A stretch of 64,000 nucleotides of DNA from Procambarus clarkii (taxonomy: Eukaryota > Arthropoda > Malacostraca > Decapoda > Cambaridae). The stretch is from contig NC_091227.1 of NCBI RefSeq assembly GCF_040958095.1, forward strand, positions 21,798,526 to 21,862,525, in the 5' to 3' direction. This document shows positions 927 to 62,226 of this stretch, one piece after another (the stretch's first letter is position 1; each line of letters begins with the position of its first letter). The position numbers and the translations under genes are program-made. A model generated the notes under the pieces. That model was not told the DNA's origin, searched no databases, and worked only from the letters and a program-made list of their open reading frames with translations.

Positions 927-1105
927 TCAACATTCTCCAACGATGTTTCGGTCCGTCCTGGACCATTCTCAAGTCTATTGTGAGAATTCACAATCGACTT
1001 GAGAATGGTCCAGGACGGACCAAAACGTCGTCATCCCTTCACTTTCTAGTGTGTGGTTTGGTCAACATTTTTCAGCCACGTTATTGTGACTCCTTGCCTG
1101 CAATA
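927..1105 (+). repeat. Palindromic short repeat, same family as the Rcc1 insert
   Basis: Inverted boxes (ggtccgtcctggaccattct and its complement, separated by gtgagaattcacaat) form a long hairpin. Then come the family's tgtgtggtttggtcaac and gttattgtgactccttgcctg boxes, also seen at 51.6 kb. A further 3'-end fragment lies at about 4034-4065. Confidence 0.75.
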
Positions 1106-18260: not shown

Positions 18261-18671
18261 AAATATTTTTTTGTGTAGATAAGGAATTCAGTAAATATTC
18301 TAATATTTGTCCTTTAAGAAAGGTGATTTCTCTCCTGAGAATATAATGGCAAAAGGTACAATCTAACAACATTTGTTAACCAGCCAACACTTCTCTATAT
18401 GAAATATCCTTAATGCACAAAAAGTATATCCTTAATGTATCCTGTCCTAATTACACAAAAAAGCACATTTTATATTATTATTTATATTTTGTATATACTT
18501 TTATAGTGTCAGACTTAGCACAGATCATTGTATCTTATTATTTCAGACACCTGCAAATGTCAGTACTGTAGTTTGATTTCTAAGAAATTTGTTGTATTGT
18601 AATTTTAAATTTTTGTAATTTTGGCAACTTCTTTATTGACATCATTAAAAATGCTGCACTGGATAGCCACC

Positions 18672-20515
18672 CCGGCTCCAGCGCTTGGTCTCGGGCCACC
18701 ACGGCTCCAGCGCTTGGTCTCGGGCCACCATGGCTCCAGCGCTTGATCTCCGGCCACCACGGCTCCAGCGCTTGATCTCCGGCCACCACGGCTCCAGCGC
18801 TTGGTCTCGGGCCACCATGGCTCCAGCGCTTGGTCTCGGGCCACCATGGCTCCAGTGCTTGGTCTCGGGCCACCATGGCTCCAGCGCTTGGTCTGGGGCC
18901 ACCACGGCTCCAGTGCTTGGTCTCGGGCCACCACGGCTCCAGTGCTTGGTCTCGGGCCACCATGGTTCCAGTGCATGGTCTCGGGCCACCACGGCTCCAG
19001 CGTTTGGTCTCGAGCCACCATGGCTCCAGCGCTTGGTCTCGGGCCACCGCGGCTCCAGCGCTTGGTCTCGGGCCACCACGGCTCCAGCGCTTGGTCTGGG
19101 GCCACCACGGCTCCAGTGCTTGGTCTGGGGCCACCACGGCTCCAGTGCTTGGTCTGGGGCCACCACGGCTCCAGTGCTTGGTCTCGGGCCACCATGGCTC
19201 CAGTGCTTGGTCTCGGGCCACCACGGCTCCAGTGCTTGGTCTGGGGCCACCACGGCTCCAGTGCTTGGTCTCGGGCCACCATGGCTCCAGTGCATGGTCT
19301 CGGGCCACCACGGCTCCAGCGTTTGGTCTCGAGCCACCATGGCTCCAGCGCTTGGTCTCGGGCCACCACGGCTCCAGCGCTTGGTCTGGGGCCACCACGG
19401 CTCCAGTGCTTGGTCTGGGGCCACCACGGCTCCAGTGCTTGGTCTCGGGCCACCATGGCTCCAGCGCTTGGTCTGGGGCCACCACGGCTCCAGCGCTTGG
19501 TCTGGGGCCACCACGGCTCCAGTGCTTGGTCTGGGGCCACCACGGCTCCAGTGCTTGGTCTGGGGCCACCATGGCTCCAGTGCTTGGTCTCGGGCCACCA
19601 CGGCTCCAGTGCTTGGTCTCCGGCCACCACGGCTCCAGTGCTTGGTCTGGGGCCACCATGGTTCCAGTGCTTGGTCTGGGGCCACCATGGTTCCAGTGCT
19701 TGGTCTGGGGCCACCATGGTTCCAGTGCTTGGTCTGGGGCCACCACGGCTCCAGTGCTTGGTCTGGGGCCACCATGGTTCCAGTGCTTGGTCTGGGGCCA
19801 CCATGGCTCCAGTGCTTGGTCTCGGGCCACCATGGTTCCAGTGCTTGGTCTGGGGCCACCACGGCTCCAGTGCTTGGTCTGGGGCCACCATGGTTCCAGT
19901 GCTTGGTCTGGGGCCACCATGGCTCCAGTGCTTGGTCTCGGGCCACCACGGCTCCAGCGCTTGGTCTCGGGCCACCATGGTTCCTGTGCTTGGTCTCGGG
20001 CCACCACGGCTCCAGTGCTTGGTCTCGGGCCACCATGGCTCCAGCGCTTGGTCTCGGGCCACCACGGCTCCAGCGCTTGGTCTCAGGCCACCACGGCTCC
20101 AGCGCTTGGTCTCGGGCCACCACGGCTCCAGTGCTTGGTCTGGGGCCACCACGGCTCCAGCGCTTGGTCTCAGGCCACCACGGCTCCAGTGCTTGGTCTC
20201 GGGCCACCACGGCTCCAGTGCTTGGTCTCGGGCCACCACGGCTCCAGCGCTTGGTCTCGGGCCACCACGGTTCCAGTGCTTGGTCTTGGGCCACCACGGC
20301 TCCAGTGCTTGGTCTGGGGCCACCACAGCTCCAGCGCTTGGTCTCGGGCCACCACGGCTCCAGTGCTTGGTCTCGGGCCACCACGGCTCCAGTGCTTGGT
20401 CTGGGGCCACCACAGCTCCAGCGCTTGGTCTCGGGCCACCACGGCTCCAGTGCTTGGTCTCCGGCCACCACGGCTCCAGTGCTTGGTCTCGGGCCACCAT
20501 GGCTCCATTACTTGG
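18672..20515. repeat. 29-bp minisatellite, about 63 copies
   Basis: A head-to-tail array of a unit built from GGCTCCAGYGCTTGGT and CTSGGGCCACCAY. The unit has no stop codon in any phase on either strand, and 29 is not a multiple of 3. All six frames are therefore open for up to 650 codons, without this being evidence of coding. Variants fall mostly at fixed positions: agCg/agTg, caCg/caTg, ctCggg/ctGggg. Two early copies carry cttgatctcc. It lies 0.7 kb past the GSE1-like stop codon. Confidence 0.95.
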
Positions 20516-20541
20516 TCTGAAGTACCAGACCAAGTAATGGA
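20505..20541. repeat. Perfect hairpin at the right edge of the minisatellite
   Basis: CCATTACTTGGTCTG is followed four to six bases later by its exact complement CAGACCAAGTAATGG. The stem reuses part of the last repeat unit in inverted orientation. Confidence 0.85.
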
Positions 20542-20545
20542 GATA

Positions 20546-21567
20546 TTGCTGAAGCAATAACTACATTAAAATTACTATAATCAACACTTTGCTGAATGAA
20601 CAGTTGAACTGTCATACCTAAACACCTTACTAAGAGGAAACATTTTTTTTTCCTAAATATTGTTCCATTTGTAACACCATTCTCAGAGTTACCAGAATTC
20701 CTTCACCTTCACAGTCTCCAAGTTACTATAATAATTTTTTTTTTATACAAGTTCAGTCAGCCTGTTTTTTCATGCCAATTCTTTGTTGTAAATAACAACT
20801 GTTTCACTCGTGCGGCAGCCAAATATATGCAAGATTCTATATTAAGTGTTAAAAACCACTTTATTTTATTTATGCAATTATAGAAATGGTAAGTGGCAGC
20901 AATATCTTTTGTAGTTTATGCATGCACCATAAAAAGTTGTATGATATAGACTACAAGAACTGACAAATGGTGCCCGAATTTATAATACTGTATATTGATT
21001 TTCATTGGTCAATCAGGATAGGATAGATTTAGGAAATAGTTTTTCTATTTAAAAGTGCAAATCAAGTGGACAAGTAGAATTTCAGTTAATACATGGCAAT
21101 TGGAGTAAGGTTGGTGGCTTCTGAAGACTTCTAATAAAAAGTTTTGAATGCATGTTGAACTGGTTTTCATGTTATTCAAGTTGAGGTTTGTTTTGACAAA
21201 GATCAATATATGTGGTTGATGCAAGACCCTGGTGAGTGTGAATGATGTGTGCCTATTTGAGTCATCCCATTTTCTGTATCTCCTATGGAAGTACTGTGAT
21301 GTCTGAGTCAGTGGTTTGAATGTTAAGATGGCAGCCAGATATTTGCTATAAAGAATTCAGATGTGGATGCCAAACTGCTGCCATCACAATTTTACTGACA
21401 GACCAAATATATCACATTTGTATTTATAAACCAAATAAAATGAAACACAAATGCAGGCTTTAATTCACAAAGCATTTAACCACTATGTTTAATACCTCAC
21501 ATTTAAGATGAAGCCCACTCCTGCTCTATTTCTCATCTCCAGTAACCCACTCCTACTCCAACCTAAA
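20546..21567. other. Unique-looking AT-rich sequence
   Basis: I see no exon, promoter or repeat of note between the minisatellite hairpin and the fold-back element. Confidence 0.4.
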
Positions 21568-27775: not shown

Positions 27776-30075
27776 TATTTATTTATTTATTTTATTTATT
27801 TATGCATATACAAAAATGTACATAAGGAATGTGAGGATACAAATATGGTAATTACAGTCTTGTAAAGCCACTAGCACGCGCAGCGTTTCGGGCAGGTCCT
27901 TAATCTAAGAAAATTTTAAGGAGGTAAATACTTGCAAAATTTATAGACAAAAAATTGATAACAGTTACATGAAATGAAAAAAAGATGAGAGAAAATTGTA
28001 GGTACAGTATATTAAAGCACATAGGTAGCTAAGATTGATTGCAATGACAGCTTGAATGGTAGTTGACAAAAATTGGTAGGCACAATACAGCAGAAACAAT
28101 ATAAGATTGATTGCAATGACAGCTTGAATGGTAGTTGACAAAAATTGGTAGTCACAATACAGCATATGGCTAGCACATAAAAGAAGACAGCAATGAACAC
28201 AATGATAAGGTTGTTTGATATTACATAAAAATTAGGAGATTGGGTAACACTAGGTACAGAGCAAATTTAAAGCTCAGTGTAGGAAACTAAGAAGATGAAG
28301 TTAGGTACTTTTTGGTTTTGCTTTTAAATAAGGCAAAAGTTTTACAGTTTTTCAATTCACTAGGGAGTGAGTTCCATAGACTAGGTCCCTTAATTTGCAT
28401 AGAGTGTTTACACAGATTACGTTTGACCCTGGGGATATCAAAGATATATTTATTTCTGGTGTGGCGATAATGGGTCCTATTACATCTGTCCAGGGAGAGT
28501 TTCAGAGCATGGTTTGCATTTAAGAACAGGGTTTTGTAAATGTAGTTGACATAAGAGAATGTGTGAAGGGAGTTAATATTTAGCAAGTTTAGGGATTTAA
28601 ACAAGGGAGCTGAGTGTTGTCTGAAAGCAGAGTTAGTTATTATTCTGATAGCAGATTTTTGCTATGTGATGATGGGCTTAAGGTGGTTTGCAGTGGTAGA
28701 CCCCCATGCACAGATACCATAATTAAGATAGGGGTAGATTAGTGCATAATATAGTGAGAGGAGAGCAGAGTTAGGAACATAATATCTGATTTTGAAGAGT
28801 ATACCAACTGTCTTAGAGACTTTCTTAGTTATGTGTTGAATGTGGGTGCTGAAGTTGAGTCTCTTGTCTAGGAATAGGCCAAGAAACTTGCCATCATTTT
28901 TATTACTGATGCTAATGTTGTCTATCTGTAGCTAAATTGCATTTGATGATTTGCTTCCAAATAAGATGTAGTAAGTCTTTTTGATGTTTAATGTTAGTTT
29001 GTTCGTTGACATCCATAAGTGGACTTTTTTTAATTCATTATTCACAACATTATTTAGTGTATGTGGGTTGAGGTTTGAATAGATAAGGGTAGTATCGTCA
29101 GCAAACAATATAGGTTTGAGAATATTAGAGACATTAGGCAGATCGTTTATATATATAAGAAATAGAAGAGGTCCTAAGATGCTGCCCTGTGGCACTCCAA
29201 TGGTAATTGGTAGAGTGGAAGAAGTTGTATCATTGATGGTTACATATTGGTGTCTGTCACTAAGATAGGATCGGATGTAGTCAAGGGCAAGGCCTCGGAT
29301 TCCATAATGCTGGAGTTTAAGTAAGAGGTAGTTGTGATTAACAGTATCAAAGGCTTTTCTTAGGTCAATGAAGAGTCCAATCGGAAACTCATTTTTGTCA
29401 AGGGATGAGTAGATAACGTCAAGGAGACTAATGATTGCATCGTTGGTGCTCTTTTGGGACCGAAAGCCAAACTGGTAAGGGCTGAGTATGTCGAATTTTA
29501 CGAGGTAGGAATAGAGCTGTTTGTAAATAATTTTTTCAAATATTTTTGATAGAATGGGTAGATTTGATATTGGTCTATAATTGTTTATGTCCACCGGATT
29601 GCCTCCTTTATGGACTGGTGTTACTCTTGCTTTTTTGAGGATATCAGGGAAGGTGTGACACTCTATAGATTTGTTGAACAGTAGTGCTATGGGTGAGGCA
29701 AGGGCATGGGAGGCTCTCTTGTACACAATGGACGGAATTTCACTGGTGTTCCCTGCCTTGGTTTTTAGAGAGTGTATGATGGACACAACATCTGCCGGGC
29801 TGATTGGTGAAAGGAGAAGAGAGTTTGGATAGCTGCCTGAGAGATATGTGTTAATATGTGTCTGAGTCTGTGGGATTTTACTGGCAAGATTAGCACCAAC
29901 CGATGAAAAGAAACTATTAAATTCATTTGCCATTTCTAAATCAGTTGACGGTATATCCCCATCCTTGTAGAGTTTTATTTGGTTATGTGAGTGTTGTTTA
30001 GTTCCTAGGATACTAGAGATAGTTTTCCAAGTGCTAATTACATGTTTATACATTTGAATGGTCCAGACAGGTGGC
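27776..30075 (-). pseudogene. L2/CR1-like LINE, 5'-truncated, reverse transcriptase with stops
   Basis: The minus-strand frame from about 30075 to 28287 encodes a non-LTR reverse transcriptase: LIDLRKAFDTVNH, GVPQGSILGPLLFLIYINDL and the catalytic FADDTT. The thumb and C-terminal part ends GPSLWNSLPSELKN. Two in-frame TAG codons (28932-28934 and about 28660-28670) break it, with no frame change. The 3' UTR runs to an (AAAT)n-type end at 27776-27805. It contains GCCCGAAACGCTGCGCGT, nearly identical to the SINE tails nearby. The endonuclease domain is missing. It cannot move by itself in this state. Confidence 0.85.
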
Positions 30076-30539
30076 CAGCCTTGGACATATACACTTCTGG
30101 TAGGCACAATGACCTCATGTTAGACCCTTGATAGATTATGTGAGAGAGAGAGAGAGAGCTGGGGCAGGGAGGTGCGTGCCCCAGGGAGATAATCCATGCC
30201 CATGCCCCGCCTCGAGGTCAGTTCTCGAGTCACACCAAGAATAACAATCGAGCAAGTTGTCCTGACCAGGATGTGGCATATTAGGGAGGGTTGAGGAATA
30301 GGAAGCCTGTCTGATAGGGCTCTTGGCAAGCAGCTCTCCCTCAGTCTACCTATCTATATGGAAGAAATGTATCTAGGCCCTCCTCCCCTCTGCCTATTCT
30401 CTCTCCCCCACCTTTCTTCCTTCATTTCCTCCCTCCTTCCCTCCCCCTCACTGGTGAGAGAGTAGGAGTGTGAGAGTGGTTAGAGAACTCGTAGTTCTCA
30501 CGCTCGTGAAATTGTCTGCGACCCTGGAGGAGTAGAGCG

Positions 30540-32937: not shown

Positions 32938-33025
32938 TTCATTGTTGACCAAACCACACACTGGAAATTGAATAGACGACGACATTTCGATCCGTCCTGG
33001 ACCATTATAAAGTCGATTGTGATGA
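32938..33025 (-). repeat. Palindromic short repeat, partial copy
   Basis: It carries gttgaccaaaccacacact and tccgtcctggaccatt, matching half of the 51.6-kb element. It lies at the edge of the rearranged Tigger element. Confidence 0.6.
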
Positions 33026-38075: not shown

Positions 38076-38742
38076 CGAACACCAGAAATGTTGTTATTCA
38101 ATTTGGTTGCCTAAAGCACATTCAAGGACTACACATTACATGGCATTCCAGGATTCCTCTATACCTTGCCTTATGCTGTAAACATTGCCACAACCCTGTG
38201 TTTTATTGATTTAAATGGCCACAGGGAGGCATACAACACTGCAGATTATGATGTCATTAGTTATCCACTGTGCTGACAAGTGGGCTGACTGATGTTCGTT
38301 GACACCTGTATTGTGCTTCAATTTAATCGCCAGGAGATCACCCTCTTACTAGACTCGTCTGTAGGAAGTACAGTATAGTATGTCAAATTACCTTGGATCA
38401 TAAATAGCATAAGACTTGGGGGTAGGAGAGGGTTGCAGTGTTTGTCATGGCTCTCAGTTGTTCCTGGTATTAGGCAATTTAGTTCTGGAATCATTTTTGT
38501 TGGCCAATGTTAAACTTTTTCGAAAGTAGATGTTTTTCTGAAAGGGAAGGGGGGGGGGGAACCTCTATGCTTGGATACAGTTATCTAAGTGAATACTTAG
38601 ATTTATACAGTAGAATAACTACCTTCTTTTCCTTAGTTAAAAAGGTTGCTTGTTTATTTCTAGGGACTTGTATTTTCTTTTATTTTTAACTGCAGCAACT
38701 TTCAGTGAATGATAGATTCTTACTGAAAGGACCTTTACTTCA

Positions 38743-40239
38743 TTGTTGTTGCTTTATGGTCATCTCATTGTGTACAGGGATTCCGCGAAGCTTTTGGGGT
38801 TAGTCTTTGACACTCGTTTGTCTTGGTCAGCCCATATCTCTTGCCTCCGAGTTGAATGCTCTAAGGCCCTTAACCTCCTTAAGGTTTTGTCCCATACTTC
38901 TTGGGGAGAGGATAGGCGCATGCTCCTCTATTTGCACTCCTCTCTCGTCCTGTCTAAACTCAATTATGGTTGCCCTGCATACTCTTCTGCTTCTCCTTCT
39001 ACTCTTCGCCATCTTGATGCTTTGCACCATACTGGGTTGCGTCTCGGCTCTGGTGGCTTTCGTTCGACTCCCGCCCTTAGTTTGTATGTTGACACTGGCT
39101 TTCTCTCTCTTCAGGACTGCCGTGATCGCTACTGTCTTCGCTATCTTGCGCGATCCTTCCAACATCCTTCCTCTCACCTCTGTTGTGCATTGACTTTTCC
39201 TCCTCCTGTGGTTCCTGTTCCTCTTCATTGTCTCCCACTTTCTGTCCAGTTATCTCGCTTACAGGATTCTCTTTCTGTTCATATTTCTAATGTTTCTCCT
39301 CGTATTGTTCCTTCATTACCTCCGTGGAGAGTCCCCCTTCGTAAGTTTTCTACGTCCTTGACTTGTATTACTAAAGCCTTTACCCCTCCTACAATTCTGA
39401 AAAGCCTCTTCCTTGAGCACTTTTCTTCGCACTCCCACTCTATTTCCATCTTCCCTGATGGGTCTAAGTCTGCGGATGGTGTGGGTTACTCTGTTGTTTT
39501 TCCTGACCGTACTTACATGTGTCGCCTCCCTTCGGAGGCTAGCGTCTTTACGGCAGAACTTTATGCTCTTCGTCTCTTGCTTTCTCATTCCTCGTTTGTG
39601 GTTGTAGTTGATTCTCGTAGTGCCCTCATGGCTCTAGGGTCCTTTAATCCTGTCCATCCGGTGGTCATTGAGATTCAACATTGGCTGTTTCTTATTTCTA
39701 GTAAATTTAAATCAGTAGAGTTTTGCTGGGTTCCCAGCCATATTGGTGTTTCAATGAGCGTGCGGATGCTGCCGCTAAGGAAGCTATCCGTTCTTGTCCC
39801 ATCTCCCGTAAAGGTATTCCTTATTCCGACTTTTATCCTGTTATTCATTCTTCCCCGTTGGCAGGGTTGTTGGTCCTCTGTGGTTGGTAACAAGCTGCGT
39901 ACTCTCAAACTTAGTGTGTCCCCGTGGCCTTCCTCCTACCACCGTAACCGGCGGTGGGACACTGCTTTGGCACGGCTGTGGGTTGGTCATACCCGCTTAA
40001 CCCACGGTCACTTAATGGAGCGCCGCCCTGCTCCTTATTGTCCGAATTGCGTTGTCCCTCTTACAGTTGTGCATATCCTTGTTCAATGTCCTGACTTCCA
40101 GGACGAGCGTGTGTCTAGCTTTCCGACCGTCCTTCGCAGTCACTTGTCCCTCGATAGAATTCTAGGTGAATCGGATACTTTTGATATCGTTCGCCTTATG
40201 CGTTTTTGTTCTCGTATTGGCATTCTTGGTGATATTTAG
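38743..40239 (+). pseudogene. I-type LINE: RT C-terminus plus RNase H, with two compensating frame shifts
   Basis: The open frame has the RT tail (LGLVFDTRLSWSAHI, LNYGCPAYSSAS) and an RNase H domain (FPDGSKSADGVGYSVVFPD, AELYALRLL, DSRSALMAL, WVPSHIGV). The C-terminal part reads HTRLTHGHLMERRP and VHILVQCPDFQDER. At about 39750 the frame leaves the expected NERADAAAKEA reading and returns near 39855, so some 35 residues are out of frame. The RT catalytic part is missing to the left. Confidence 0.85.
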
Positions 40240-50670: not shown

Positions 50671-51415
50671 TTTATCTGCGAAACCTTTATTTTAATCACA
50701 GGAGCCAAGAAATTCACGTCACCGAATTGCTCATCCAAAATACAATTAAATTGTTTCTTAACATATTACTGGACCATCAAGTAAAAGTTTCTTTTAACAT
50801 AAAAAATATTTCTGAAAACTTATGAATAAAAGTAAATGTAAGTGGCCTGTCTTTAAAATTAATTAAAACACTTTCTTTGGAATCCGTCAAAACTCTTTCA
50901 TGAGAAAAGCATGAAAATAAATACTTTAAACCTTAGTCTCAACTATGTAACAAGCAAGGATTAAGCTTCTAAAGCTAACTGTATTGTATTTCAAAATTCA
51001 AAGAAAAAATATGGCAAGATCCCAAATTTTACTAAAAATGTTAACCCCCTCCCCCCCCAATAGAGAAAACAAAAAACCAAAGAGAGATGAAAACACAGCA
51101 AAACATCTTTACCAAAGATAAATAGCAATAAAAACTGCTTTTTGTTTTTTATTAAATATTCTACTTATAGATCTAGTTTGTAGCATACTGTTCTTAGTCA
51201 TCAACAGTACATTTACGACATTATTAACCAAATACACATTCAGATTCAAAATGTAAATGATTTAATGTAAATCACACACAGGTTTCCCATGCATTCAGCC
51301 ACACAAATTTGTACAAATAAGTTATCAAAACAAGCATGTGGACACTTCTTTTGCTGTGCCACTGAGCAAATTACATTATTACAACAAAAAATAGTACACC
51401 CTAAAATTACAAATA
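50670..51415 (-). other. Rcc1: Probable Rcc1 3' UTR
   Basis: AT-rich sequence without open frames follows the stop codon. Read on the minus strand, an AATAAA occurs near 50690 and other A-rich hexamers lie earlier. The exact polyA site is not decided by sequence. Confidence 0.4.
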
Positions 51416-51582
51416 TCATTTGGGAACAGCAAGAATAATTGTATGTTGTCCTCCAGCTACAGCATCCACAACTCTTCGATCGACCAGTTGCTTACCAGTC
51501 AACTTCACAGGAACCAACTGGTCATCCTCGTCTCCCTGGGCCAGCTGGTTGTTCGTGCCCATCCCAAAACCATACACATCAC
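51416..51582 (-). CDS. Rcc1: Rcc1 terminal coding exon
   Basis: The acceptor is ctgcttacag. It encodes [32 protein letters not shown] and a short tail ending VPK then stop. The acceptor sits in a 12-bp direct repeat whose twin lies 163 nt upstream at 51741-51752, flanking a palindromic repeat. Confidence 0.93.
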
Positions 51583-54500
51583 CTGTAAGCAGACAAGGAG
51601 TCACAATAACGTGGCTGAAATATGTTGACCAAACCACACACTAAAAAGTGAAGGGACGACGGCATTTTGGTCCGTCCTGGACCATTCACAAGTCGATTGT
51701 GAAACGTCGTCCCTTCACTTTCTAGTGTGTGGTTTGGTCGATCACCTGTAAGTTTAATACCGTACAGTACATTAGTCCATGAACAGTTCAGCAAAGAGCA
51801 GATTCAGTATGAAATACTGTACAACATTCTGAAAGCAAATGCAAAATATAATCATAAATTAAATTATCAAAACAAGTAGTTACAGTATTATGATCTCAAT
51901 TTATAAAAGTGATCTTCAAAAGATAGAAACCATATATTTTGCAGCCAAGGAGGCACAAAATGAAATCAGATGAGAAAATAAGCTTAAATAATTACCAGTA
52001 ATTAGAAAATGGGCACTAGATTTGAGGTAAAACCAATCTTTTTTAATATCCATTCACCACACATGGCATAGGAAATCTGAACCACCATACAGTAACACAG
52101 AAACATCTCTAATGAATGTTAATTACCAGTACAGTAAAAAAGTGGGTCCCCGAGGTTGGAATATTTGTGTGTGTAAACATGAGAGCGTCATCCATACTCC
52201 AAATATCCAATCTAATGTTCTCAATATTAACAGGCTGGGTATTGCCATGTGGCCGCCTGCTGTTGCATATGTCATGTCCTTGCTACAATTTTGTCCAAAG
52301 ACAGTGACTTACTAGAAAACTGATCAACACTGTCCAGTCAATGTTGTGTTACACTGAGAATGCTCTGCACTGTGGAATTTTCATTGTATTGTGATACCAT
52401 TAACCATTAAATCACCCAGTGTTTATACAAACGATGCAATTTTTTTTATATATGTATATGATGTATTGGAGTTAACCAAGACCTATGAACAAATTATTAT
52501 AATTTTTAATTGCTTACTAAGTGATGAGCTTATTGTGCACTAGTGGCCTGCAATCATCATCAAATCACAATTTGATCTGTCCCACAGGCATTTGAATTTA
52601 TTTCTGGACAATATTCCCATACAGAATAGCAGCAAAGGAGTGGGCTTACAAGACAATTTCTTGCAAAGGTGTGCAGCTGTGCCAGGAACAGATTTAGACA
52701 ACCCATCTTCCTAAAATGACAATACTTATAGCAACTATTGTGTTGAACATACAGTACTAATATGTACTGCTAACCCCCCCCCTCCCCCCCAAAATCTCAT
52801 GTTTTGTGCTATTACTTATATAGAGCCCCTCCCCTACAAAATGCTAAAATCCAAACTTAAACATTCCTAGGCCTAGTATAGCATATATGTACTGTACTAT
52901 ATTAGGTCTAAAATAACAAATATTAGGCCTAGCATATATATATCACAACTTGGACATTTTAAGTTAGGTTCCTTAGTTCCGCACATTTCCGTTTTCTAGA
53001 ATGGAATTTATACTAATTTAATAAAATAAGATGTGAACTTTTTGAGTGTTCAACAGTTTGGTCCACCAGGCTGTTGCTTGGAGCGGCCCGCAGGCCCACA
53101 TACCCACCACAGCCCGGTTGGTCCGGCACTTCTCTTAGAAAACAGTCAAGTTTTCTCTTGAAGTATTCCTATTTGTTCCTATCAGGTTCCTATTTGGCAG
53201 GGCCCTGAGTACTTTCCACCATCACACTCCAGCAAAACATACATGTACATATATGTACAGCCACATTTGCACCCCACCACTTCATTCAACTTTACAACTA
53301 TTTGTAAGAAGCAGGTGAAATTTTGCTGGGATGTAATGGGGCAGATTTTAAACAATTTTGAACTGTGAAGCATGGCACAAGCAGTAGAGTATTTTATATC
53401 TTTTTTTCCTATATTGCTTAACTACAGTATTTCTTTTTGGCTGATACCTCCGCATCCCATAAACGTGGGAAACAAAGTATTAATGATAACTGTATTAACA
53501 ACAGTATTATTGTTATATATGATACTTGTACAACAGACTTCCAATTTTACAATAAAATGTGGTCTTGACACTGTTTAAAGTCAAATCACAACATTTTAAA
53601 TCAAATTTGTTTAAATATCTAATGGTTACAAGATTTCCAAGATTAATTACAGGAAGAATCGATTCTTGTAATTTAATGAGACGCATCTATACTAGTTTAA
53701 GATAGTTAACACAATGGAATTAGAGGGTCTGGTTAGGGGTCTGGTAGCTGAGTAGATAGCGCGCAGGACTCGTAAAAAAACTGGCCATAATTCTGTGACC
53801 CGGGTTCAATTGCTGGACCAGGCAGAAACAAATGGGCAAAGTTTCTTTCACTCTGAATGCCCCCTGTTACCTAGCAGTAAATAGGTACCTGGGAGTTAGA
53901 CAGCTGTTACATAGCTGCTTCCTGGAGGTGTGTGTGTGCGGGGAAAAAAAAAAATAGTAAGTAGTTAGTAACATCATATGACAGTTGAGAGGCGGGCCGA
54001 AAGAGCAAAGCTCAAACCCTGCAAGCACAACTAGGTGAATACAATAGAATTTGCTGGTAAGAGCAGTTCAATCTAACATGATTAAAAATTGTTATGACAA
54101 ATACAATGAAAATAAAAGAATTTAAGCCCTACCAGATTCCATGACCACTAGGGATACACATTCACCAGCTGACACACTAATGGCCTTCTGTCCTTCTAAA
54201 GTTGTTATTGCTGTTGGTTTCTTGATGTCGTGTTGCAATTCTCCTAAACCCAGACGTCCATATTCTCGACGTCCCATACAGTATGCTGTGCCATCATCAG
54301 TAAGAGCCAAACTGAAAGTGATGAATAAACATCATTAATACTACACTGCAACTCTATTTTAATGGAAAATGTTACATATTCCCACTATCTCATAGACTCA
54401 TATATAAAGGAGTTACATATAGTGTACTTCTTTCTTAGTTTTATGATTACAGTATCTGTAAGTACAGTTGATTTACAAGTAATAAGCAGAAGCTTTCTAA

Positions 54501-60500: not shown

Positions 60501-62226
60501 ACACACCATTTTCTACCTTTGGGGCTTCTAATTTCACTATGTAAAAAAAGAAAAAGAAAATAGATTTATATACTTGGAGAGAGACAAGATAAAAAAATGC
60601 TTACCTCTTTGCTTTTACATTCAAGGGCAGTATAACTGAAGATAGCCGTGCAAAATTTAAATTGATTTCATCGAAGATATAATTATTAGCCAATGATTAC
60701 AAACTACATATTCATGATCCTAGTCAAGTTAACATTTATATGTGCAACTTACAAATACAGTACTGTAACTAAATGCTGTATTCCAAATGCATAGTAAAAT
60801 GTTTTTATAAAAAAAAACATACATAATGTCCTTAATCATAGGTACAGTACATAAATACCATACATACATAAGCAATACCCCATTTTCCAGTCTCAAAGAG
60901 AGGAAAGGTATCAACCCAGAATAAAAAGATGAAAAGTGATAGAATATTATACATATTAAAACAAATTGTCTATACATCAGAAGAAAGAAGAGAAGACAAT
61001 TTCAGTCCATCCTGGACTATTATCAATTCGTGTGATCACATGGTCCAGGATGGATTGCAATGTCGTTTCTTTATCTTCTGATGTGTGGGTTGGTCATCCC
61101 ACCTGCACTTTTCAAAACTATAATTTCAGACACAAAAACACTGAACTGCAATCAAGAAAAATTATCCAATTTTATGCTTAAGAAAACAGTCTAATTAAAA
61201 CTTAATTATAGTAAATGCATTTCTATTCTGAAAACAATATTGGAGGCAATGTAACAGGATCAAACTATCATACCTGGACTCTGCAGACACACACACACTG
61301 CTGACTCAACCAGGATGGGCTCAAAAGTACTGGGATTAGAAAGTTTGCCTGATTCACTTTAGAAGGTAGAACTTCTGGTCAAGATACTTTAGAGCTTTGT
61401 TCAGTTGGCAGCATGTGTGTCTGGTAAGCCCAGATACAGGTTTGATCCCATCACATTTGACTCAATATTTTGTCATAGATACATCATGTTACTGTGATTT
61501 CAATCTGTATTTCCATTCGTTTTATTTATCTTCATATTTTAACATGTAATGATATACTGTATTTGAGAAGTCTCTGAAATTTTGGTATTAAGTTTTTGCC
61601 ACTGATATAAACATTATCCAGTTTTCCTTCCACAGGTGGCCAGTGAATTGCACCAGCCAATGACTTTACCCATATAGAACAAAAACTTAGGTGCAAGTGA
61701 TAGCCATTTTCCAGCCATAAATCTACTAAATAGATTATATACAAATTTGCCAATGACATATATTTATTCACGGGTTCATTTTAGGGTGCACTGAACATTT
61801 GGAAGGTGCCAAGATGCAGGATGGCACTCCAAAAAAAATTGAACACACAAAACAATCACAAATTCAATATAGCAAACAGTGCTTGCATTTAGTGAAGTTT
61901 ATTTTTTAGTACTTATCTCCTGGATAGTAAATTTGTGAATATCAAACACACATATAGCAAGAGCTAACTGTATAATTCAGATTCATACATCTTCGCTTCA
62001 GTTTTGTTACTACTTAAGCACCAATATATAACACTTAGGACAAACAAAACAAATTTCTTTAGTTGATAATGATTACCTTTGACCTTTTTTACTTCAAGTG
62101 GAGCCTTGGATGTGAGTGTGCGTTTCCGCCCTCTTCCTTTGGGTACTTTGGATACTTCTCCATTTACTTTAACTTCTTTAGCTTCAACTTTTGAAGCTGC
62201 TCTTCCTCGAACCATTTTTCTATAGC
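51416..62226 (-). CDS. Rcc1: RCC1, Ran guanine-nucleotide exchange factor (complete CDS, 8 exons)
   Basis: Coding pieces in transcript order are 62215-62077, 60536-60349, 59564-59385, 58607-58382, 56729-56577, 55453-55360, 54311-54133 and 51582-51416. All borders are GT-AG, phases agree, and the total is 1,326 nt or 441 aa, close to the usual length of about 420. A basic N-terminus (KGRGRKR) would serve as nuclear localisation and DNA-contact tail. It is followed by the seven-bladed RCC1 propeller: [65 protein letters not shown] and [11 protein letters not shown]1 binds nucleosomes and loads GTP on Ran, giving the Ran-GTP gradient that drives nuclear transport and spindle assembly. The segment SGNNHL has Asn where the human protein has the catalytic-face Asp182. 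Introns carry several repeat insertions, one lying exactly at the last acceptor. Confidence 0.93.
51590..51740 (-). repeat. Palindromic short repeat inserted at the Rcc1 exon 8 acceptor
   Basis: A 151-bp insert is bounded by direct repeats ATCACCTGTAAG at 51578-51589 and 51741-51752. Its outer parts are inverted repeats (gaccaaaccacacact and its complement, plus the neighbouring agtgaagggacgac). The middle holds GGTCCGTCCTGGACCATT and CACAATCGACTTG-type boxes. The same boxes occur near 927, 32938 and 60985, so this is a dispersed family. Confidence 0.8.
53060..53165 (-). repeat. SINE fragment in Rcc1 intron 7
   Basis: The complement of gcggcccgcaggcccacata matches 37940, with aagttttctcttgaa next to it. 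This is repeat debris without promoter boxes. Confidence 0.5.
53740..54055 (+). mobile_element. tRNA-like SINE (family B) in Rcc1 intron 7
   Basis: It has an A-box-like region (gtagctgagtagatagcgcg), the B box gggttcaattgctgg, then aggcagaaacaaatgggca and cctagcagtaaataggta. It ends after cgggccgaaagagcaaagct. Its body matches the copies at 12.7 and 14.0 kb. Confidence 0.7.
54133..54311 (-). CDS. Rcc1: Rcc1 coding exon 7
   Basis: The acceptor is cactttcag and the donor G|gtaggg. It encodes [22 protein letters not shown], one of the best conserved RCC1 blades, and the start of the next ([10 protein letters not shown]). Confidence 0.92.
55360..55453 (-). CDS. Rcc1: Rcc1 coding exon 6
   Basis: A short exon of 94 nt with acceptor ctgtttcag and donor AG|gtatgg. 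It encodes [10 protein letters not shown], with the conserved His pair on the Ran-binding face (His304 in human). Confidence 0.9.
56355..56400. repeat. Hairpin in Rcc1 intron 5
   Basis: TAATTACATGTAAACA and its complement TGTTTACATGTAATTA are separated by about seven bases. Confidence 0.8.
56455..56525 (+). repeat. SINE family B 3'-end fragment in Rcc1 intron 5
   Basis: The sequence aagaccggaccgcgggacg followed by gagccctgaaatcaa resembles the end of the SINE at 14.2 kb. It stops about 50 bp from the exon 5 donor. Confidence 0.45.
56577..56729 (-). CDS. Rcc1: Rcc1 coding exon 5
   Basis: The acceptor is taatttcag and the donor G|gtaagt. It encodes the blade with [13 protein letters not shown] and [12 protein letters not shown], matching the YGFGLSNYHQLG segment of vertebrate RCC1. 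Confidence 0.92.
57650..57882. mobile_element. MITE of Tigger type in Rcc1 intron 4
   Basis: About 230 bp bounded by imperfect inverted ends (acaatggcgcctcgattaat; the complement of the right end reads acagtggaacctagagtgac). It contains repeated actcga/ctcgt boxes and no coding capacity. Confidence 0.65.
58382..58607 (-). CDS. Rcc1: Rcc1 coding exon 4
   Basis: The acceptor is tttcctcag and the donor G|gtaagg. It carries [18 protein letters not shown] and [11 protein letters not shown]. In the human protein the first of these histidine motifs reads NDH; here it is NNH. Confidence 0.92.
58786..58980 (+). pseudogene. Tigger/CENP-B-like transposase N-terminal relic in Rcc1 intron 3
   Basis: The plus frame [20 protein letters not shown] resembles the first helix-turn-helix of jerky/Tigger transposases. 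The remainder is unrecognisable. It is opposite in strand to Rcc1. Confidence 0.4.
59385..59564 (-). CDS. Rcc1: Rcc1 coding exon 3
   Basis: The exon has exactly 60 codons, acceptor atgacttcag and donor AGA|gtatgt. It carries [11 protein letters not shown] and [16 protein letters not shown], keeping the Asp equivalent to human Asp128. Confidence 0.92.
60349..60536 (-). CDS. Rcc1: Rcc1 coding exon 2, first propeller blade
   Basis: The acceptor is tttacatag and the donor AAG|gtgtga. It contains [11 protein letters not shown], whose Asp matches the Ran-facing Asp44 of human RCC1, then AGGLHSVCL. Confidence 0.92.
60985..61110 (+). repeat. Palindromic short repeat, diverged copy in Rcc1 intron 1
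   Basis: Inverted segments cagtccatcctggac and gtccaggatggat surround tcaattcgtgtgatcac, followed by gatgtgtgggttggtca. It is the same architecture as the 927 and 51.6-kb copies with more substitutions. Confidence 0.6.
62077..62226 (-). CDS. Rcc1: Rcc1 coding exon 1 with start codon
   Basis: An acceptor (cttttcag) lies eleven bases before the ATG at 62215-62213, so at least one 5' UTR exon lies further right. Context gaaaaATGG is favourable. The donor is G|gtaatc. It encodes the basic tail with GRGRKR and two Lys-rich patches. This ATG is the first in the exon and no in-frame ATG precedes it after the splice. Confidence 0.88.

Follow-up and report, generated by a model that had tools for sequence, protein, structure and literature searches.

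An inserted repeat and a duplicated splice acceptor at the last intron of the RCC1 gene of Procambarus clarkii

Insertions at splice acceptors in other organisms

In maize, insertions of Ds and of other transposons generate target duplications that give alternative splice sites, as in the RCC1 gene described here. Unlike the RCC1 element, Ds and its maize relatives are DNA transposons with duplications of fixed length. The closest precedent, by analogy a strikingly close one, appears to be canine Merle. The available parts of two reports indicate that in Merle an antisense SINEC_Cf lies at the boundary between intron 10 and exon 11 of PMEL (SILV), with a 15-bp target duplication and an upstream alternative acceptor that adds 162 bp (PMC7349775, PMC6091007). 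RCC1 likewise has an antisense, apparently SINE-like element at an acceptor, together with a target duplication and, upstream, another acceptor. As far as those parts of the reports go, there are also differences. The alternative acceptor of Merle lies inside the SINE, with oligo(dT) length governing whether it is used, whereas the second acceptor of RCC1 lies in the other copy of the duplication and the insert has no oligo(dT). In Merle the frame is kept and 52 aa are added, whereas the outer RCC1 acceptor would shift the frame. Moreover, the Merle transcripts have been observed, whereas the RCC1 case is known here from the genome sequence alone.

Two other systems share single traits with this locus, according to the accessible portions of their descriptions. 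Introners are mobile elements that can recruit splice sites from the places where they insert or from their target duplications (PMC9860276). The RCC1 insert resembles them in that it too is mobile and has a target duplication able to provide splice sites; however, introners create new introns in many genes, while in RCC1 there is one insertion and an existing intron is lengthened. In the ratchet points of Drosophila, an AG|GT in which acceptor and donor are juxtaposed lies upstream of the final acceptor, as in RCC1 (PMC8605326), although the RCC1 site is in a 2.55-kb intron and is a prediction made from its letters. In the literature covered, with most subscription journals outside its scope, we found no mention of the repeat in RCC1 or of this RCC1 allele, no pieces of the repeat sequence, and no report on a palindromic SINE in a crayfish genome. 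The part of a decapod repeat review that was accessible does not mention the repeat (PMC10454600), and a 23-base piece of it gave 0 matches to viral contigs.

The RCC1 gene, the insert and its repeat family

The window, that is, the whole stretch of 64,000 nucleotides analysed, contains an RCC1 gene on the minus strand. The model was rebuilt by eye as eight coding exons with GT donors and AG acceptors (Table 1), giving 1326 nt and 441 aa. The protein aligned with human RCC1 (PDB) over query residues 25-438 (E 1.8e-117) and matched Pfam PF25390 with 369 bits. Judged by this homology, the gene is a true RCC1 (Ran exchange factor), the RCC1 domain being homologous end to end. The last intron, of phase 1, runs for 2.55 kb from the donor after 54133 to the acceptor at 51582, and exon 8, of 167 nt, completes a split codon with its first 2 nt, encodes residues 388-441 in 54 codons and ends with the stop. 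RCC1 is essential elsewhere. A six-frame comparison of the protein with the whole 4.03-Gb assembly returned 14 matches, namely the 8 exons of the gene itself and 6 relatives of 29-40% identity on other contigs; none of the 14 is a second RCC1 or a processed copy. For this reason, the idea that a duplicate gene or a processed pseudogene might preserve a record of how RCC1 is spliced was rejected. The assembly also yielded 31 hemocyanin matches, and none of 14 control genomes yielded any; this expansion fits an arthropod, and a resemblance of the repeats suggests a decapod crustacean.

Table 1. Coordinates of the RCC1 exons, the insert, the duplication and the candidate splice signals in the window
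Feature	Position	Strand	Comment
RCC1 exon 1	62215-62077	-	gene model
RCC1 exon 2	60536-60349	-	gene model
RCC1 exon 3	59564-59385	-	gene model
RCC1 exon 4	58607-58382	-	gene model
RCC1 exon 5	56729-56577	-	gene model
RCC1 exon 6	55453-55360	-	gene model
RCC1 exon 7	54311-54133	-	followed by donor CTG|gtaggg after 54133
RCC1 exon 8 (last coding), from inner acceptor	51582-51416	-	167 nt
Inner duplication copy CTTACAGGTGAT	51578..51589	-	acceptor AG|GT; exon start 51582; also holds TGA 51581-51579, the end of the outer-acceptor frame
Outer duplication copy CTTACAGGTGAT	51741..51752	-	acceptor AG|GT; exon start would be 51745
Inserted repeat, probably a SINE-like retroposon antisense to RCC1	51590..51740	+	151 bp; comparison with family copies
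Non-palindromic 37 nt of the element	51590..51626	+	RCC1-strand end is gactccttgtctg, then the inner acceptor
Hairpin part, 35-bp arms	51627..51739	.	arms 51627-51661 / 51705-51739; RNA fold prediction
CTAAT branch-point-like motif	51771..51775	-	A at -27 from outer acceptor; motif match only
Acceptor-like stretch cgtcgtcccttcactttttag	51641..51661	-	exon start would be 51640
Acceptor-like stretch acatatttcag	51615..51625	-	exon start would be 51614

At the end of the last intron, the two copies of the direct repeat ATCACCTGTAAG are identical (12/12), their starts lie 163 nt apart, and on the coding strand both read CTTACAG|GTGAT, each with an AG|GT acceptor. The 151-bp insert lies between them and its boundaries coincide with those of a repeat family. 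Its inverted arms are 35 nt long, 97% complementary and separated by 43 nt, and the hairpin is strongly predicted when the RNA of 51570-51780 is folded (z -9.1; 0/200 shuffles as stable). The original prediction had proposed a 151-bp palindromic repeat between two copies of a 12-bp target duplication, each with an acceptor, at a distance of 163 nt that is not a multiple of 3. The duplication, the paired acceptors and the distance were confirmed by the exact repeat, by the AG|GT in both copies and by the repeats of at least 12 bp at the ends of 18/43 family copies. The insert does have the proposed length and 35-nt arms, but the palindrome occupies only 113 nt of it and the 37-nt tail is non-palindromic. 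The origin of the 151-bp stretch by insertion is firmly supported, and it is from the duplication that we infer the ancestral state of the last RCC1 acceptor.

Two genome searches with the RCC1 insert gave 2,856 and 2,837 first-look candidates, and a search with another family copy as query gave 1,334, all of them candidates and not confirmed copies. The best 40 of the 2,856 and the best 40 of the 2,837, which are those most like the RCC1 copy, were scored. The family is about 150 bp long, the best 40 of the 2,837 starting at query positions 1-7 and ending at 148-151 of 151. A total of 63 loci were read, and merging of records at the same place and of copies with similar flanks left 43 distinct insertions. 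Exact direct repeats of 8-16 bp were found at the element ends in 29 of these 43; the repeat reaches 10 bp in 24 of them and 12 bp in 18. Among 2,150 random pairings of flanks, repeats of at least 8, 10 and 12 bp occurred in 0.28%, 0.19% and 0 of cases, respectively. In the other 14 distinct copies no exact repeat reaches 8 bp, but imperfect repeats are present in several. The longest duplications measure 12 (nine copies), 13 (three), 14 (four), 15 (one) and 16 bp (one), and the shorter ones may have decayed. The 5' end of the family is a near-constant (TG)CAGRCGA, with some variants. At the other end, 26 copies whose repeat is at least 9 bp long were measured. Of these, 7 pass straight from ...GGTC into the duplication, and in 18 a tail of 1-6 nt starting with A intervenes; in the RCC1 copy the tail is a single G and is not A-rich. 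Compared with the majority sequence of 28 rows, the RCC1 copy has 6 substitutions in 150, three of them CpG-type transitions, and a 3-bp deletion, a divergence that gives a rough relative age only, since the 28 rows were picked by similarity to the RCC1 copy and include duplicated loci.

Variable duplication length is a signature of target-primed retroposition, as carried out by LINEs and SINEs, and not of cut-and-paste transposition. Since the duplications are variable and the ends are near-fixed, a SINE-like retroposon antisense to RCC1 would fit the sequence data better than would a transposon moved by cut and paste. Counting against the retroposon are the 14 of 43 copies that lack an exact repeat of 8 bp, the 7 of 26 that lack a tail, and the single G in place of an A-rich tail in the RCC1 copy. 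A MITE (palindromic DNA transposon) might be suggested by the hairpin with its 35-bp arms and by a short, apparently non-coding element with 2,837-2,856 unconfirmed candidates. However, its exact duplications range over 8-16 bp, and over 12-16 bp among the 18 longest, which are less likely to have decayed. In addition, one end of the element lies 37 nt past the arm, and the tail that separates the 3' end from the duplication is variable. Cut-and-paste insertion was rejected because the duplication length is not fixed and the inverted repeats miss one end by 37 nt, and we consider it very improbable. An RNA of known family in 51400-54400 was also rejected, given that there was no Rfam match up to E 1; ARAGORN with a lowered threshold returned at least one poor tRNA-like fold. 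Both results bear on the RNA polymerase III promoter, derived from tRNA, 7SL or 5S RNA, that a SINE would be expected to carry.

Several other repeats occur in the window. Positions 930-1100 (minus strand) hold another family copy with a shortened 3' arm, and its flanks, TTGGAGAATATTG and TTGGAGAATGTTG, resemble a target duplication of 13 bp in which one position is mismatched. A fragment of the same family lies at 32943-33022 (90% identical over 80 nt), and a diverged hairpin, apparently also of this family, is found in RCC1 intron 1 at about 60970-61130 (77% over 60 nt, 60982-61035). The last RCC1 intron contains, at about 53735-53990, the tRNA-like interspersed repeat gtagctgagtagatagcgcgcaggactcg, which we take to be a SINE. 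Frames of 395 and 507 aa at 28932-30119 and 38716-40239 resemble, by eye, a non-LTR reverse transcriptase and its RNase H part. A long tandem repeat at 18580-20560 is open in several frames on both strands, its minus strand reading approximately DQALEPWWPETKHWSRGG.

As the RCC1 duplication is an AG|GT, the family could be regarded as introner-like, spreading by turning AG|GT targets into introns or splice sites. In this orientation, CAGGT stands on both sides of a copy at 31 places, RCC1 included, vs 37 for the permuted word CAGTG (four overlapping in one array) and 15 for the CpG-containing word CGTGA. The test, run with an exact anchor of 16 bases and these two words as controls, is coarse; by it CAGGT targets appear not clearly enriched in the family, so that the hit on a splice site seems fortuitous. 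Copies were read at 20 of the 30 other CAGGT places, and 10 of them have a direct repeat of 10 bp or more that includes CAGGT. Yet Pfam gave no match at E 0.1 to any of the 10 open frames scanned out of 24 listed next to the read copies, and none of the 20 copies was recognised as duplicating the acceptor of a second gene; two frames beside CAGGT copies look, by eye, like LINE reverse transcriptase. Furthermore, it is an existing RCC1 intron that is lengthened. Introner-like targeting was rejected for want of clear CAGGT enrichment and is held to be extremely unlikely.

Possible use of the inner and outer acceptors

Eight AGs lie between 51800 and 51560, and the inner acceptor at 51582 is the only one that restores RCC1; it gives the complete protein, in agreement with the original prediction that the C-terminus is reached by the inner site only. 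From the outer acceptor at 51745 the sequence diverges after residue 388 and runs through 53 other codons to a TGA inside the inner duplication, so the claim of about 55 repeat-encoded codons stands as to the TGA and is corrected as to the number. By coincidence the predicted product is also of 441 aa, with the last 53 residues replaced by 53 others; those lost are presumably the last RCC1 blade.

The context of the acceptors was assessed by motif counts, with no trained predictor. Pyrimidines at -20 to -5 number 12/16 at the inner acceptor and 8/16 at the outer, compared with 9-15 at the six other RCC1 acceptors. The tract of the inner site comes from the repeat, as had been proposed, the 37-nt tail of the element ending in gactccttgtctg. 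The outer acceptor is preceded by the branch-like YTNAY motifs CTAAT at -27 and TTCAT at -35, and its AG-free stretch covers the whole 60-nt scan. The 60 nt upstream of the inner acceptor contain no YTNAY except at -4, and the AG-free stretch there is 30 nt, with another AG site 32 nt upstream. On branch-point grounds, as far as motifs indicate, the outer acceptor is the better site. According to these motif counts, then, the inner site would be ahead on pyrimidines and ancestral exon and the outer one on its branch region.

The original description of two acceptors is accurate for the two copies of the duplication but incomplete, since the element adds further AGs and two of these, 51640 and 51614, are acceptor-like. 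The 51640 candidate has the top pyrimidine count of the four sites (13/16); it lies in the hairpin stem, with a predicted chance of being unpaired of 0.0. The 51614 candidate has 9/16 and a predicted product of 390 aa. In the palindrome of the family, the acceptor-like stretch cgtcgtcccttcactttctag is present in both orientations, and for this reason an intronic family copy would offer such a stretch whichever way it lay; the one in RCC1 is predicted to be buried in the stem.

It had also been predicted that the gene depends on choosing the inner acceptor or else makes a truncated product. The first part holds insofar as only the inner site encodes RCC1. The alternative is less strict: since the duplicated site reads AG|GT, the joint made by splicing to the outer site would itself be a possible donor, and use of the outer acceptor need not mean truncation because re-splicing to the inner acceptor is possible and could yield normal mRNA. 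In such recursive splicing, exon 7 would first be joined to the outer AG|GT and the 163 nt would then be removed via the inner acceptor. The duplicated site, CAG|GTGATC, agrees with MAG|GTRAGT at 7/9 positions, within the 6-8 of the seven real RCC1 donors, and the available part of a Drosophila study describes ratchet points with the same juxtaposed acceptor and donor (PMC8605326). However, once exon 7 is joined the donor becomes CTG|GTGATC, which scores 6/9 by hand count, the same as the exon-7 donor, and the lack of YTNAY, except at -4, in the 60 nt upstream of the inner acceptor counts against a second step. In the same part of that study, a cryptic exon at the ratchet point is reported as necessary and ratchet points occur mainly in long introns (PMC8605326), against 2.55 kb in RCC1. 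We therefore regard this route as improbable.

A stable two-isoform gene, in which both acceptors are used substantially and the protein with the aberrant tail is abundant and matters, seems unlikely, though it deserves some weight. The outer acceptor has its retained upstream sequence with CTAAT at -27, and its frame is open for 53 codons with the stop in the terminal exon. A stop in the last exon should escape exon-junction-dependent decay. The 53-residue tail, however, matched no Pfam family at E 0.001, and there is no sign of selection keeping its frame. In favour of two isoforms is also the dog Merle allele, where an antisense SINE at an acceptor leads to two transcript forms, according to the parts of the reports available (PMC7349775, PMC6091007).

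Proposed events and their implications

Taking these points into account, we think it likely that insertion of a SINE-like retroposon duplicated the acceptor, and that RCC1 mRNA uses the inner junction while the outer one competes with it. A non-autonomous SINE-like retroposon would have inserted antisense to RCC1 by target-primed reverse transcription, at a 12-bp target site lying exactly over the acceptor of the last intron, and the duplication of that target would have produced two identical CTTACAG|GTGAT acceptors. The outer acceptor would have retained the ancestral upstream intron, and the inner one the ancestral exon, with a pyrimidine tract from the tail of the element. Functional mRNA would have exon 7 joined to 51582, either directly or via re-splicing of the outer junction. 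This joining appears to be required because one RCC1 locus was found in the assembly, its last exon is intact, and the C-terminal blade is obtained only from the inner junction. The outer acceptor may be expected to compete, giving some transcript with an aberrant tail.

It is conceivable, with a small probability, that the retroposon made an AG|GT ratchet out of a plain acceptor: the outer site, served by its own branch point, would act first, and the hairpin would then leave as a 163-nt intron. The hairpin might in that case hide its own acceptor-like stretch and cut the effective distance. If this were true, the gene would tolerate a frame-breaking insertion on its acceptor, and insertions on any AG|GT acceptor would be partly self-correcting. 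If only the inner site is used, the case would be a tidy but ordinary insertion. Either way, the locus offers a clean natural experiment in acceptor choice, with two letter-identical acceptors 163 nt apart served by one donor in a single-locus gene, of which the outer keeps the ancestral upstream intron and the inner keeps the ancestral exon and has more pyrimidines. The use of the two junctions would show which side of an acceptor dominates, and whether duplications of AG|GT heal by re-splicing.
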